From positions 20,414-41,424 of IMG/VR virus record IMGVR_UViG_3300012012_000690: a stretch of 21,011 nt of DNA; one strand, given 5' to 3'. Below the pieces are notes generated by a model, which was not told where the DNA came from, did not search any database, and worked only from the letters and a program-made list of their open reading frames with translations. This stretch comes from a virus. The translations under genes were made by a program, and so were the position numbers. Shown here piece by piece: positions 7,795 through 20,434 of this stretch; position 1 is the first letter of the stretch, and each line of letters starts with the position of its first letter.

Positions 7795-10062
7795 TTATGG
7801 GCGGAATATAGTATATCCTAAATCTGTTAAATCCTCCATGTTAAGATCGTCTTCTCCGTATATGTCCAAATTACCGAGTAAAGGTTCATACTTCTTTTGA
7901 ACTTTTTCGTTGGATGGTATTACCACATTTCCACCTATTAAATCTTTCAATTCATATAAACTCTCATCATTAGGGAAATATTCACCTCTAGTTATCTTCA
8001 AAGGCTTCTGTTGCTCGTCTGTCTCTTCTATGTTAAAATATTGCTGACAAACATCAGGGTCTAATGTAAACAATCCCCAAACTAATCCCATGACATAATC
8101 ATCAAAAAATTTTTCCCCTTTTTTCCTATATGTTCCATTTGGATATCTAATAAAAGTCTCTAATTCAGATATTGTTTGAGAATCGTATATTTTAACCACT
8201 TGTAAGAAATTGATCCAATATCTCAAATTGCTAACAGCATTAAACCTAAGATTGTTATGGCTAAAAATACCCAAATTTTTGGTGGATTTATATTCTCCAG
8301 TCTGAGTCAATTTACTATAACTTACCAATTTCTCGTAACTCAGTTCATGTGATAGTGCATCCAGCGTTTGAGCACCACAGTTATTTCTTTCAATCAACAA
8401 TGGAGGATTACCCCAAGAAGAACAAAGGTTTATTAATCGATTTGCGAAATGATATGGTTCTATCGTGTTTGAACCATAAACAGCAACTTGAGTTATATTA
8501 GATAAGTCTGTCACATCCAAAACCTGCGCTGTAGATGAAGCCCTCCCTACGCCTTCGCCAACATCGCAACCCACAACATATAAATTATCCTTCTTAGGCA
8601 TTTCATAAACTCTGTAAGAACCATCATCAGACTTCCATATAGGTGCTTTTTTATTAACCTTAAAAGCCTCTAAAACATCATAACCTACTGCGGCTGTTGC
8701 GGAATCCAAAAATACATTGCCAAACTCCTGAGAAAAAGACTCTTCCGATCCTAAAGTGTTAACCATGTCATTCTTCCACTTCTCGTTTCTTCCCGGAACA
8801 TCCCACCAATCAATTCTTTCATTGTTCCACCCATTATCTCCCTTTTCAGCACCATTATACATCTCATAGAACTTGTTTCCTATTCCATTAGGTGTGCTAA
8901 CCATGAAGATTTTCGATTTTTTACCAGATGATATAGTAGGAATAACAGACTTCCAGAAATCATCTAAAAGGTGTGTATTATGATTTAAAATACCATTAGC
9001 ATAATATCTGTGATTCTTTTCAACATCTACTATATCATATACATAATCCTCATCATCAATTTCTTCAACACTAATAACTTTATCTATTCCATTTTCTGTT
9101 ATAATGTTCGAACCTAAAGAATTTACAGCGTGTATAATATCCCCCGATTCTAATATAAATCCATGTTTTTCAGAAACTATTATGTTTTTGCCGCACCCTA
9201 AAAGCACTTTCACCAATTTCTTTTTATCGTATTTCGAAACACCTTTAAAATCTGACCATCCACAATCCGTCCACACTTCCAAATTTTCATTTGTTTCATA
9301 ACATATTAAATCGTTTTCAATACCTGAAACATTAGTATTGAACTTAAACATTTCTCCGATCTTTTTCTCATATTCTTTTTTAGTAAATACATCTCTCAAT
9401 TTCACAACAGATTCCCCATGTAAACATTCTATATGTGCAGCCTCATCTATAAACAAACAATTTATTGACTGGCCACGAGCCGCTGTGGATGATGTAGTGC
9501 TAACTTTGATAGAACTTCCATTAGCTAACGCCATTCCTGTTTTTCCCCACTCTTTTACTCCGGGTTTTAGGTAATTCGGAAGTAATTCATATGCTAGTCT
9601 TATTCTACTAAAAATTGATATTGCTGTGTCTTCTTTGTTCGCAACTATCAACATGCTTTGATCTGAAGAGAAACAGCAAATCCATAATGCGAAAATAGTA
9701 GCCAATGTGGAATTATGACTTAATATTCCATTCGTATAAAAAGTATGATTTTCTGAATCTATAGACAAATCATACATATTCTCAGGAGGACAGTCTAATT
9801 TAACCACACTATTCACCTTCTCAATTCCATTTTCAGTTATTATACCATCACCAACTTTTAAGTCTTTGACATATATCTCAATACCATCCTCTCCAATCAC
9901 TATATGTTCATCAGCACACTCTAAAAAGAAATTTGAGGTTTCTATCCTCCAAACATCAAATGGCACTGTTTTATGCACTTCTTGAATGTCCACCCACCCT
10001 TCATCTGTCCATACTTCATAATCTTCAACTTTTTTAGAGTCTATAAACTTTTCTGCTTCCAT
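7795..10062 (-). CDS. 17: Large terminase (TerL, gp17), C-terminal half: IntC, ATPase, mini-intein, nuclease
   Basis: The 755-aa product has five parts. Residues 1-117 are the C-fragment of a split intein ending SHN. Residues 118-212 resume the ATPase at STLATIFALW just after the P-loop lysine and end with Walker B, LFIDEAAHIE. Residues 213-362 are a complete mini-intein. Residues 363-452 resume at THLLDDFW, with coupling motif STPNG at 389-393. The rest is the RNase H-like headful nuclease, with likely metal-binding D500 (GCDVGEG), E558 (LLIERN) and D654/D655 (FFDDYVMG). Protein trans-splicing with the product of 11379-11810, plus cis-splicing of the second intein, would give a TerL of about 596 aa (T4 gp17 is 610). 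TerL pumps DNA into the prohead and cuts concatemers. The start follows the endonuclease stop by 11 nt. Confidence 0.93.
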   Translation of the reverse strand: MEAEKFIDSKKVEDYEVWTDEGWVDIQEVHKTVPFDVWRIETSNFFLECADEHIVIGEDGIEIYVKDLKVGDGIITENGIEKVNSVVKLDCPPENMYDLSIDSENHTFYTNGILSHNSTLATIFALWICCFSSDQSMLIVANKEDTAISIFSRIRLAYELLPNYLKPGVKEWGKTGMALANGSSIKVSTTSSTAARGQSINCLFIDEAAHIECLHGESVVKLRDVFTKKEYEKKIGEMFKFNTNVSGIENDLICYETNENLEVWTDCGWSDFKGVSKYDKKKLVKVLLGCGKNIIVSEKHGFILESGDIIHAVNSLGSNIITENGIDKVISVEEIDDEDYVYDIVDVEKNHRYYANGILNHNTHLLDDFWKSVIPTISSGKKSKIFMVSTPNGIGNKFYEMYNGAEKGDNGWNNERIDWWDVPGRNEKWKNDMVNTLGSEESFSQEFGNVFLDSATAAVGYDVLEAFKVNKKAPIWKSDDGSYRVYEMPKKDNLYVVGCDVGEGVGRASSTAQVLDVTDLSNITQVAVYGSNTIEPYHFANRLINLCSSWGNPPLLIERNNCGAQTLDALSHELSYEKLVSYSKLTQTGEYKSTKNLGIFSHNNLRFNAVSNLRYWINFLQVVKIYDSQTISELETFIRYPNGTYRKKGEKFFDDYVMGLVWGLFTLDPDVCQQYFNIEETDEQQKPLKITRGEYFPNDESLYELKDLIGGNVVIPSNEKVQKKYEPLLGNLDIYGEDDLNMEDLTDLGYTIFRP
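8977..9426 (-). other. Contiguous 150-aa mini-intein in TerL after Walker B
   Basis: Residues 213-362 of the downstream TerL polypeptide interrupt the conserved sequence DEAAHIE/THLLDDFW. The insert starts with Cys (CLHGESVVKL) and ends NGILNHN before extein Thr+1. A block B-like SEKH with its His is at insert residues 85-88, and the block F-like region reads YDIVDVEKNHRYYANGIL. I checked the boundary codons: TGT at 9426-9424 and AAT at 8979-8977. No room is left for an endonuclease domain. The site lies next to the catalytic Walker B acid, so unspliced protein should be inactive. All standard splicing residues (Cys1, His, penultimate His, Asn, +1 Thr) are present, so it is probably active. 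Confidence 0.92.
9712..10062 (-). other. Split intein C-fragment (IntC, 117 aa)
   Basis: The first 117 residues of the downstream TerL polypeptide are intein, from the ATG to the terminal Asn before extein Ser+1. Visible features are EVWTDEGWVDIQEV, a block B-like ECADEHIVI (His kept, the usual Thr replaced by Ala), VKDLKVGDGI, and a C-terminal YDLSIDSENHTFYTNGILSHN-type block with penultimate His. The last codon, AAT, is at 9714-9712 and the Ser+1 codon TCC follows. It carries most of the Hint fold, the reverse of the canonical long-IntN/short-IntC arrangement. The layout is like the atypically split AceL-TerL intein (IntN about 25 aa, IntC about 104 aa) known from Ace Lake metagenomes. Confidence 0.92.
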
Positions 10063-10073
10063 ATAGGTATAAC

Positions 10074-11372
10074 TTATCCATTCCTTATGAAATTAATGCA
10101 GTCTTCTAAAACTTTCTGCTTGTTTAATTTATAATCGAATTCATTAACAGTATATATTTTACATCCTATACTATCAATTAAATCTTTATCTCTCTTCACA
10201 TCTCTTTCGATTGTATATTTACCTCTAATATTTCTCGGAGAGTGCCAGTATTCACCATTAAATTCTATAACTTTATTCAATTCTTTAATGTAGAAATCCA
10301 ATGATCGTGTTGTGAGATTGGTTCTTATTTTATATTCATTGTTTTTACCATTATTCGACTTTTCTCCATTTAATATTGTGGCGAAATATACTTCTTTATA
10401 TTCATCTTTTATTTCCTCGTAAATATACCAAAAAAGTTCCTGTGAAATTAATGAATAGTTCAATTTTGGGAAAGAATTCAACCATTTTTCAGTGATTGTT
10501 TTCCTTTTTTCTATGGCCTCTATTTCTGAGCATCCTGTCTGTTTCATGATACTAGGAATTGAATTTGTGTTTTGTCGCTCACTAACTTTCTTTTTCGCTT
10601 CGTCGAAAGAAACCCCTAGTCTAGTCCAATATCCTATTTGATTTGGCATATTTTGGTTTTTTATTTGTCCCTCTGATATTTTTTTACCACATAAATGTCT
10701 TCCATTTTTCTCATTGTAATATCTCACATTACAATCTTTATTATAACAAAATTTGTCATATCCTTCCCATATATTATTAAATTTGACATTTTCTTCACAC
10801 CATAAGCATTTTCCTACCGCTTCTGAGTTTATGTGTTTCAAATAATATTTTTCATCACTATCATGAGATTCGTTAATATGTATTGTCAAGTGAGCTTTAC
10901 TGGCATATTTCATATCGCATTCAAAGCATCTATATATGTAATCGATTGTCTTAGTTCCCCCTGATCTTATTTTCCAACTTTGATTATAATGTGTCATGCA
11001 ACATGCATTATATCGCACAAATTCAAAGGGTATATCGTTTTTACATTCTGTTATGCAACATTCAGAAAAGGGCTTAAAATATTTATTATAAATGGTTTCT
11101 TTATCGGCGTTTTTACCACATCTATACAAAGCCACCGATACAGCTTTCCAAGACTCAAAATAAGCATTCAACTCTTCCACAAATGGATATCTCATCAATT
11201 CTCTCAAAGTATATTCTATTACATTATTATTTTTTCGGTATAAATTTTTAACTAGTGAACCCGCGAAAAGGCCATACGTTTTATGTTGATGTTCAGTCAA
11301 TTGCTTCCCTGTTACTTTACATAGTCGTTTTTTCATATGCTTATATTTAAGCATGTTAGCAGAAATTGTCAA
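10074..11372 (-). CDS. Homing endonuclease between split-intein halves, zinc-finger and Vsr-like
   Basis: The frame gives 432 aa from a TTG at 11372-11370. ATG codons at 11354 (residue 7) and 11336 (residue 13) are equally plausible starts. The N-terminal half is Cys/His-rich, with pairs near residues 105-110 and 124-125, a C2H2 finger (C149-x2-C152-x12-H165-x4-H170) and a Cys cluster at 189-214 (CLWC, FCYNKDC). Residues 250-300 form a helical linker of the kind used for DNA contact. The C-terminal ~90 residues match the Vsr-like nuclease fold of fractured-gene endonucleases: SLDFYI (D359), KVIEFNGEYWH (E370, H377), ERDVKRDKD (D391) and YTVNEFDYK. It probably cuts intein-free terL and spreads the split intein. 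It overlaps neither half, and gaps on both sides are only 6 and 11 nt. Confidence 0.85.
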   Translation of the reverse strand: MTISANMLKYKHMKKRLCKVTGKQLTEHQHKTYGLFAGSLVKNLYRKNNNVIEYTLRELMRYPFVEELNAYFESWKAVSVALYRCGKNADKETIYNKYFKPFSECCITECKNDIPFEFVRYNACCMTHYNQSWKIRSGGTKTIDYIYRCFECDMKYASKAHLTIHINESHDSDEKYYLKHINSEAVGKCLWCEENVKFNNIWEGYDKFCYNKDCNVRYYNEKNGRHLCGKKISEGQIKNQNMPNQIGYWTRLGVSFDEAKKKVSERQNTNSIPSIMKQTGCSEIEAIEKRKTITEKWLNSFPKLNYSLISQELFWYIYEEIKDEYKEVYFATILNGEKSNNGKNNEYKIRTNLTTRSLDFYIKELNKVIEFNGEYWHSPRNIRGKYTIERDVKRDKDLIDSIGCKIYTVNEFDYKLNKQKVLEDCINFIRNG

Positions 11373-11378
11373 ACTCTA

Positions 11379-11810
11379 TCAGGGTTGCCTAAGACTTAGT
11401 AGATCAACAAAACTTTTCAGTTTCACACATTCGATTTCACCAGTTTTCTTATTCCTTATTTTAATCTCTGAATCACTTCTCAAACATTTTCCGGCTTGTC
11501 TAGAACTCAATAAAACGACGAACCTATTGTTCTGCAAGCTCTTTAAAACCCTTTTTTGGGCTGGATAAAGTTCGATGGTTTCTTTACCTCTATCTAGATT
11601 TACAATCGTGAAATGATTTTCTGCGAAGTGGACTATATTATCCCTACATTTTTTCAATTCTTTAACCATTGCTGGTGTAAAATTAAATTGAGCATTTTCC
11701 TTCGGGAGTTTTTTGTCACCCCTATAAAAATCCCTCTCGTTTATCGGAACGTTATTGATAACATCGTCCGCATTTACCAATTCTAATTTAGTTGCGTCAT
11801 CTTCTGACAT
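11379..11810 (-). CDS. 17: Large terminase (TerL, gp17), N-terminal half with IntN
   Basis: This 143-aa polypeptide has 108 residues of terminase and 35 of intein. The terminase part holds an acidic leader, FAENHFTIVNLDRG, the adenine-binding-like IELYPAQKRVLK and the start of Walker A, LLSSRQAGK, ending at K108. C109 opens the intein fragment. The frame ends at TGA 11381-11379, directly followed by TAG. The remaining Walker A residues (Ser-Thr) are encoded 1.7 kb downstream at the start of the extein in the next TerL polypeptide, so neither half can bind ATP properly until trans-splicing joins them. A weak SD-like TAAGG precedes the ATG by 4 nt. The upstream neighbour is an intein-free copy of the same ATPase region. 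Confidence 0.92.
   Translation of the reverse strand: MSEDDATKLELVNADDVINNVPINERDFYRGDKKLPKENAQFNFTPAMVKELKKCRDNIVHFAENHFTIVNLDRGKETIELYPAQKRVLKSLQNNRFVVLLSSRQAGKCLRSDSEIKIRNKKTGEIECVKLKSFVDLLSLRQP
11382..11486 (-). other. Split intein N-fragment (IntN, 35 aa)
   Basis: Residues 109-143 of the upstream TerL polypeptide start with the Cys1 nucleophile (CLRSDSEIKIR) right after the Walker A lysine and run to the stop codon. Thirty-five residues is far shorter than the roughly 90-100 of typical split-intein N-fragments. Adding the 117-aa C-fragment gives 152 aa, almost the size of the contiguous mini-intein in the same gene (150 aa), so no part of the Hint domain appears lost. Confidence 0.9.
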
Positions 11811-11826
11811 ACAACCTTATTTAACA

Positions 11827-12525
11827 TCACACTTCAAATTCTTCTTCGAAATGTGACTCCCCTCCTACACATTTAATCATAGCATTTTTCCATTTTTCGT
11901 CTCTGTGAGGAACATCTTGCCAACGCATTTTAGCCTTTCTCCACACCGTTTTGCGTTTATTTTTATGAATTTTATTTAGAAACCTTGATTTCGATATTTT
12001 ACCAGTTGAGAATATAGAAACGTTAGAGCATGTAAAAAGAGGGTATAAAGATTCCAATTCATCATCAGTATAGAATGATCCTTCATCAACCAATAATACA
12101 TCTGGTCGCAATCCTCTGATATTAGAATCCAATGAAGTTTTAGAAATAAATTTTATAGAAGAGAGATTATCGAAAACTATCCCATCTTTACCATATCTCA
12201 ATACGCCACATTTTAAAAAGTGCGGCAAATTATCATATGCAAGCTTGATACCTTTTAACGAACATGATGCATGTTCAGAGGTATTTGTTGTGATTACAAC
12301 ATTACATCCGTTTTTCGTGATACAATTCCATAATGCGTATATATTCAACAGTGTAGTCTTTCCGCATTGTCTTGGGAATCTAATAGCGTTTAAACGATTA
12401 TTAGAAATTCTTTTTAATATCCTTTTTTGTGCTGGATAAAGTTTAATAATTCCTGCACCTCTATCTAGATTTACATTCGTGAAATAGTTTTCCGCGAATG
12501 TTATTATATCAATTTTCTCACTCAT
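11827..12525 (-). CDS. Intein-free TerL ATPase-domain paralogue lacking the nuclease
   Basis: This 232-aa protein aligns with TerL from FAENYFTNVNLDRG (TerL FAENHFTIVNLDRG) to WQDVPHRDEKWKN...HFEEEF (TerL WWDVPGRNEKWKN...SFSQEF). Walker A is intact (PRQCGKTT, K56) and so is Walker B with its catalytic Glu (VLLVDE, 143-148). A Ser-Thr-Gly coupling motif follows at 173-175. It has no intein at either TerL insertion site. It lacks the acidic ~55-residue TerL leader and ends where the RNase H-like nuclease would start. At DNA level the stretch 12422-12499 is about 82% identical to 11551-11628 by hand count (64 of 78). It is probably a duplicated ATPase module. It may be functional (regulator, decoy or partner of TerL) or a decaying relic, though the intact frame and ATPase residues favour selection. 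Confidence 0.85.
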   Translation of the reverse strand: MSEKIDIITFAENYFTNVNLDRGAGIIKLYPAQKRILKRISNNRLNAIRFPRQCGKTTLLNIYALWNCITKNGCNVVITTNTSEHASCSLKGIKLAYDNLPHFLKCGVLRYGKDGIVFDNLSSIKFISKTSLDSNIRGLRPDVLLVDEGSFYTDDELESLYPLFTCSNVSIFSTGKISKSRFLNKIHKNKRKTVWRKAKMRWQDVPHRDEKWKNAMIKCVGGESHFEEEFEV

Positions 12526-12528
12526 AAA

Positions 12529-12948
12529 TTACATTTCATCACAATCTCCGCTCATATCATTCATATCACCAGCTTGATTGTTCATAATATTGAAAAAAGC
12601 GAATCTGAAATTTTCCATTAATGCATCTTTATCCTTTGTATTTTCAGCGTGCATTAAAAATACTCTGTTGTCAGTTAAATCGTAACCAACCGTGATATAA
12701 CATTTCAAATACTCCCTGTTTATATTGTGTAAATGTGCTATATCCGCTTTTTTTACGTTTTCGACAGATACAGTCTCGTAAAATTGATTGAATGCTTGCT
12801 GAATCAGCTTTTGAATCTCAGGGTCTATTATTTTAGGTTCTGGCTCAACCTTACTAAGTTTATCAGTCACCTTTTTTTCTGGTTTCAATATTTTTTTGAG
12901 GGAATTATTTTTTTTACCCTTTGGAGAATTTTCAGAATCTTTAGGCAT
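12529..12948 (-). CDS. Unknown 139-aa protein upstream of terminase; possible small terminase by position only
   Basis: I do not recognise this protein. The first ~35 residues are very Lys/Ser-rich (KGKKNNSLKKILKPEKK). The middle has a helix (PEIQKLIQQAFNQFYETV) and a more conserved-looking part, AHLHNINREYLKCYITVGYD, then NRVFLMHAENTKDKDALMEN. The end is Met/Asp/Asn-rich and acidic. The gene ends 3 nt before the TerL paralogue start, so the two are likely co-translated. In T4 the small terminase gp16 lies directly before gp17; size and position here would allow that role, but no DNA-binding motif or convincing similarity is visible. GATAAG lies 8 nt before the ATG. Confidence 0.65.
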   Translation of the reverse strand: MPKDSENSPKGKKNNSLKKILKPEKKVTDKLSKVEPEPKIIDPEIQKLIQQAFNQFYETVSVENVKKADIAHLHNINREYLKCYITVGYDLTDNRVFLMHAENTKDKDALMENFRFAFFNIMNNQAGDMNDMSGDCDEM

Positions 12949-20390: not shown

Positions 20391-20434
20391 ATGTTCAGAT
20401 TGTATCTTACCATAAAATTATCATTTTTCAAGTC

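Follow-up and report, generated by a model that had tools for sequence, protein, structure and literature searches.

A selected, nuclease-less paralogue of the large terminase ATPase encoded beside split terL in an uncultured T4-like phage

An uncultured T4-like phage encodes, directly upstream of its split large terminase gene (terL), a second terminase ATPase of 232 aa that has no nuclease domain. This protein, hereafter the TerL companion, is a real, selected, and recently acquired member of an arrangement that is known, but uncharacterized. The window, that is, the whole stretch of DNA that was analyzed, comprises 21,011 nucleotides (positions 20,414 to 41,424) of a viral record of 41,424 bases (IMG/VR record IMGVR_UViG_3300012012_000690).

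The packaging motors of tailed phages are regarded as homomeric rings of TerL. If the companion is a true partner of TerL, some motors would be heteromeric or would work with a dedicated TerL partner; alternatively, phages may produce look-alikes of a target of bacterial immune sensors. A selected, nuclease-less TerL relative beside TerL spans three phage groups (that of the window, the RaK2-like phages, and phages of rhizobia), and phiM12, which has this arrangement and is in culture, would allow either reading to be tested directly.

Identity and genomic context of the companion

The companion ORF opens with an ATG codon; gaps of 3 nt and 16 nt separate it from a 139-aa gene upstream and from the N-terminal part of terL downstream, in a minus-strand series that runs from genes of 246, 111, and 139 aa through the 232-aa companion to a two-piece terL around an endonuclease-like ORF:

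12529..12948, minus strand: 139-aa gene upstream of the companion; in relatives, this gene is conserved ahead of terL (synteny in about 45 loci)
11827..12525, minus strand: TerL companion, an ATPase-only TerL paralogue of 232 aa (ORF, Pfam, PHROG, AF2 model, selection)
11379..11810, minus strand: N-terminal part of terL, a paralogue of the companion, with the leader, the start of the ATPase, Walker A as far as GK, and the N half of an intein
10074..11372, minus strand: homing-endonuclease-like ORF between the split-intein halves (weak matches to phrog_3339/559, homing/HNH endonuclease)
7795..10062, minus strand: C-terminal part of terL, with the C half of the intein, the rest of the ATPase, and the nuclease domain (Pfam Intein_splicing and Terminase_6N, phrog_2)

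Several comparisons bear out the initial annotation of this ORF as a second TerL ATPase directly upstream of split terL. The protein matches Pfam Terminase_6N (24.7 bits against a cut-off of 22) and the terminase family phrog_5989 (1.7e-30), profile comparison with the PDB recovers T4 gp17 (6.6e-14), and identity to residues 58-282 of the phage's own spliced TerL is 39%. An AF2 model from 44 homologues has a mean pLDDT of 86 and finds its best solved match in the ATPase domain of T4 gp17 (TM 0.85), a TerL-like fold being expected here because the alignment behind the model is mostly TerL. By sequence and by model, the companion is a T4-type TerL ATPase domain. It has the fold and the catalytic residues in common with the T4 gp17 ATPase domain (2o0j/2o0h); in T4, however, this domain is part of a two-domain, nuclease-bearing motor protein, whereas the companion is a separate gene. 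The ORF stops at the ATPase boundary, without the C-terminal RNase H-fold nuclease domain, and contains neither an intein nor a leader, as had also been claimed at the outset.

Three motifs mark the ATP site and the putative finger arginine:

12352..12372, minus strand: Walker A, RQCGKTT, residues 52-58 (alignment; the Walker A of T4 gp17 falls at the same position)
12112..12117, minus strand: Arg-Gly, R137-G138, counterpart of R139 in P74-26 TerL (profile alignment; invariant in the TerL alignment)
12082..12087, minus strand: Walker B Asp147 and catalytic Glu148 (invariant in the TerL alignment)

The Walker A site is the one that carries the split intein in TerL; the Walker B segment of the companion reads LLVDE. 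At companion Arg137, the P74-26 alignment shows LRG in the wild-type structure (4zni) and LAG in the R139A entry (4znj); we take R139 of P74-26 TerL to be a trans-acting (arginine) finger. In an alignment with 41 TerLs, the companion keeps 47 of the 77 near-invariant columns, including Gln33 (the Q motif), Arg52, Gly55-Lys56, Arg137-Gly138, Asp147-Glu148, and Ser173-Thr174. The 30 that are lost include the Ala-x-Lys-Glu after the second strand and the Phe-Trp after Walker B. The coupling segment, STPNG in TerL, is STG in the companion, the Pro-Asn-Gly being gone. The motifs had been described as intact, which is accurate for Walker A, the Walker B glutamate, and the coupling Ser-Thr; the description of the coupling motif holds for Ser-Thr only, because the segment is STG and not STPNG.

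The 139-aa gene occupies the slot of the small terminase in T4 and has a long predicted helix in a low-confidence model; no family in Pfam or PHROG matches it, and we regard it as a small-terminase candidate. The 246-aa gene, also without a family match, is read as sliding-clamp-like. No mobility gene lies inside the companion insert, a scan for promoters and terminators gave hits at chance level, and PADLOC and Rfam returned nothing useful.

Selection and distribution among close relatives

Companion orthologues were found in IMG/VR in only two contigs, L001 (96% identical) and L002 (92%), in the same place. Among the three alleles, dN/dS is 0.22-0.35, and it is 0-0.11 for flanking genes. In a neutral simulation that placed the observed substitutions at random, the two informative pairs, with 18 and 21 amino-acid changes, fell well below the neutral means of 32.3 and 35.8 (P<0.0002); for the closest allele pair, P was 0.018. 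None of the three alleles contains a stop or an indel, where the simulated probability of a stop was 0.64-0.89; for the two informative pairs, 88-89% of runs produced one. The deficit of amino-acid changes therefore shows that the companion protein is kept, less strictly than its neighboring genes. The companion is a selected, working-looking gene and not a dead duplicate, and the suggestion that it is a duplication relic does not survive the three intact alleles, their dN/dS, and this significant deficit.

Between the window and L002, dN is 0.040 for the companion versus 0.007 for the C part of terL, and dS is 0.18 for the companion versus 0.07-0.12 for its neighbors; the raised dS therefore suggests allele exchange by recombination.

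Some 45 relatives with sequence across the junction have the clamp, the 111-aa and 139-aa genes, and terL, and no companion. Since no other relative with junction sequence has it, the companion is not essential in this group. The initial annotation had pointed to related phages and to dN/dS: two orthologues under purifying selection were recovered, with absence from the other relatives with junction sequence and with no decay. No second ATPase was found elsewhere in the long relatives (contigs up to 218 kb), no relative in cellular genomes, and no near match in cultured phage DNA. The window companion is a recent, patchy acquisition in its clade.

Two relatives (L011:5105-5344 and L012:1266-1502) carry an unrelated 79-aa ORF in the companion's slot before terL; the gap before terL therefore resembles an insertion hot spot.

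Companions in other phage lineages

The arrangement is already in print. CBB_274 has been described as a truncated large terminase beside the TerL CBB_275, an unusual feature common to other RaK2-like phages, and phiM12 and phiN3 are also credited with a truncated TerL beside TerL, in the parts of a 2017 paper considered here (PMC5259590). The initial annotation knew of no described role for such a partner; this holds for the literature surveyed, the considered parts of PMC5259590 included, none of which assigns a role to a truncated TerL adjacent to TerL, and it is the arrangement itself that had already been noted. Relative to those passages, the contrast in evolutionary rate and the dead ATP sites described below are new.

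In the Sinorhizobium phages phiM12, phiM7, phiM19, and phiN3 (Emdodecavirus), gp17.2, which in phiM12 is SmphiM12_113, is a 196-aa ATPase-only TerL encoded between gp16 and gp17. It is 25% identical to the window protein and resembles it in its intact Walker A, Asp-Glu, and Arg-Gly, and in the replacement of STPNG by STG. Unlike the window companion, which has the last ATPase subdomain, gp17.2 ends at the coupling motif; it abuts or overlaps gp17, and gp17 has no intein. Between phiM12 and phiN3, gp17 is 99.1% identical versus 81.6% for gp17.2, which has a dN/dS of 0.205.

Among RaK2-like jumbo phages, a companion lies directly upstream of TerL in CBB, GAP32, XbC2, Kaldavass, SNUABM47, and BF, and a degenerate one, recognized by weak profile matches and position, in 121Q, RaK2, and Hallingskeid. 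These truncated terminases (CBB_274, GAP32_268, and BF_0272; degenerate in 121Q gene 3 and RaK2 ORF110) have an ATPase fold of ~230 aa with the same extent as the window companion, the last ATPase subdomain included, and are 22% identical to it. All nine have lost both the Walker A lysine (to Leu, Ile, or Thr) and the catalytic glutamate (to Ser, Asp, Met, or Asn), whereas the Arg-Gly is kept in eight, the arginine being lost in RaK2. The RaK2-like companion is old and retained in its group, in contrast to the recent window copy. Three of the loci (L157:1507-2190, which is 121Q gene 3; L158:1092-1772, which is RaK2 ORF110; and L159:1404-2162) are annotated as hypothetical and are degenerate TerL ATPase-like genes without the Walker A lysine.

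Rates in these lineages follow the same direction. CBB and GAP32 are 96.5% identical in TerL versus 57.4% in the companion, at a dS near saturation; XbC2 and Kaldavass are 96.0% identical versus 86.5%; and the genes of SNUABM47 and BF show no synonymous differences. In these other lineages, dN/dS is 0.15-0.22 for the companion versus 0.04-0.05 for TerL. In each of the three lineages, the companion is under purifying selection and changes several times as fast as TerL. The reading frames of companion and TerL overlap in phiM12 and in a number of RaK2-like phages, which suggests that the two are expressed in a coupled way. T4 also makes shorter forms of TerL alongside the full protein, annotated as internal-start products of gp17; unlike the companion, they are products of gene 17 itself, with the nuclease retained and only N-terminal parts missing.

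Origin of the companion and probable exchange with terL

In the terminase tree, the window companion branches inside the clade of local TerLs, its stem being 2.9 changes per site long, gp17.2 falls near its own relatives on a stem of 3.3, and the CBB-type copies stand beside RaK2-like TerLs with weak support. A single clade of the window companion and gp17.2 was not rejected (p 0.136), the branches being long and weakly placed. We favor separate origins for the companions, the placements being unsure from long branches.

A simple duplication of the resident terL in the recent past was also considered; a clade of the companion with its own terL lineage was rejected (p 0.027), a value to be read with caution given the very long stem. 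A possible route to a companion-like copy is offered by T4 gene 17 amplification mutants, in which recombination around genes 16 and 17 yields extra copies beside terL (cited in PMC3012670). Those amplifications, however, are selected copies of the resident gene, whereas the window copy is truncated and 39% identical.

One stretch of the companion is closer to terL than the rest:

12421..12510, minus strand: 5' segment of the companion (codons 6-35), closer in DNA sequence to the resident terL than expected (72/90 nt)

The initial annotation had put the likeness at about 64 of 78 bases. The segment is real, a recount giving 66 of 78, and its identical codons exceed chance: where residues are identical, 17 of 21 codons are the same as in the resident terL, compared with 45% on average for other TerLs, and in the remaining companion gene about half of the codons are identical (Fisher p 0.022 versus the segment). 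Within the segment, the resident terL itself shares 17 of 29 codons with its nearest relative, L011, and 20 of 28 with L013. The companion is the likelier recipient, because the resident terL is an ordinary L011/L013 relative there and the companion is nearer to the resident terL. The simplest reading is that a short gene-conversion tract probably passed from terL to the companion after the split from L011, a direction drawn from these codon comparisons. The companion had been proposed as a reservoir for gene conversion; conversion over a short tract is supported, with the roles apparently reversed, terL as donor and the companion as recipient. Contigs L007 and L009 start at terL residues 59-61, inside this segment, as if assembly had broken there.

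Putative function and alternative explanations

The explanation that we tentatively prefer, plausible if somewhat short of probable, is that the companion is a functional accessory partner acting on TerL or on the motor. Such a protein would use its ATPase-to-ATPase face to bind TerL itself or one of TerL's own partners (the portal or the small terminase), and its arginine would reach into a neighboring TerL site. As an occasional hetero-subunit or a competitor, it could tune how the motor assembles, how packaging starts, or when TerL changes between cutting and translocating DNA; lacking a nuclease, it would have no means of cleaving DNA. The shared role can probably be performed without ATP turnover by the companion, because the ATP site is gone from the nine RaK2-like companions examined, most of which keep the finger. 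T4 motors are built from monomers at the portal and tolerate defective subunits, which alter their engagement and speed and make them work less well (PMC8589836); a mixed ring is therefore physically plausible. The initial suggestion of a regulator that mixes into the motor ring is compatible with these data and strengthened by the comparative evidence, at the level of what sequences can suggest.

The companions have in common a place next to TerL, where reading frames often overlap, the nuclease-less ATPase fold, the finger arginine, which is retained even in copies with a dead ATP site, and fast change under constraint. A partner at the TerL interface would explain the position, the fold, and the kept arginine; an arms-race role would better explain the fast, constrained change. 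Against a motor partner stand the faster change than in TerL, unlike a stoichiometric ring subunit, the loss of 30 of the 77 near-invariant columns, and the one RaK2-like copy without the arginine. A wider generalization, in which companions form a recurrent class of motor accessory subunits with at least three origins in T4-superfamily phages, acting as ring hetero-subunits that lend or withhold an arginine finger and as pseudo-ATPases in some lineages, seems rather unlikely.

The main rival explanation is a decoy or inhibitor of host defense, a TerL look-alike that would bind an Avs1-3-type sensor silently or otherwise shield TerL. Avs1-3 sense the large terminase (PMC12724215), and an Avs3-terminase complex (8dgc) is among the fold matches of the companion. 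An accessory, patchy gene that changes several-fold faster than TerL, with raised dS of its own in two lineages, as in arms-race allele exchange, fits this role, and a dead ATP site, as in the RaK2-like copies, is what might be expected of a silent mimic. We nevertheless consider a decoy unlikely, as it does not require the constant position against TerL, and a sensor might be set off, not blocked, by the intact ATP site of the window copy.

Quite improbable, in our view, is a passenger of the insertion hot spot between the 139-aa gene and terL, that is, a horizontally moved terL fragment with a weak or transient function. The unrelated 79-aa ORF in the same slot in L011 and L012, the long stem branch, and the recent arrival are in keeping with a passenger; but the protein is under significant constraint with three intact alleles, the companions of distant lineages use the same position, and the insert has no mobility gene. 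More doubtful again is a weapon that enters and poisons the motors of co-infecting phages or satellites, or excludes them, its own TerL being tolerant. Defective subunits doped into the T4 motor do impair packaging (PMC8589836), and competition among relatives could account for the patchy presence and the fast change; self-harm would nevertheless be expected, because the TerLs of the closest relatives are nearly identical to the resident TerL. A dead or dying terL duplicate, to which the truncation, the faster change, and the 30 lost columns might point, is very improbable and strongly disfavored by the deficit of amino-acid changes (18 and 21 versus 32.3 and 35.8), the lack of stops and indels, and the kept catalytic residues.

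Inteins and split terL genes

Besides the split intein at Walker A, the C part of terL in the window has a second intein after DEAAHIE, past the Walker B segment. The companion had been proposed as a splice-independent substitute for the intein-bearing TerL, an idea that its distribution, which is not tied to inteins, does not uphold: intein-split TerLs occur without a companion in L011-L015, L018, L052, L055, L061, and L069, and phiM12 and phiN3 have a companion, yet an uninterrupted TerL.

Near-identical TerLs differ in intein content. L002 (4561-7233) has a third TerL intein at SINC/LFIDE (the break marked before LFIDE), just before Walker B, which the window does not have. At the split-intein site, L001 (6716-8445) and L007 (1-1600) have another endonuclease ORF, of a 421-aa type, between flanking genes nearly identical to those of the window, and in L001 the N half of the intein also differs; this suggests a swapped homing cassette. 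In L007 (1-300), the intein N half appears broken by a stop at the expected first intein residue, which may be an assembly error because it lies close to the contig end. Further T4-like terL genes, in L129 (366-4133), L135, L137, L138, L067, and L068, occur in at least two ORFs and are broken at the Walker A and Walker B sites, like split-intein fractured genes.
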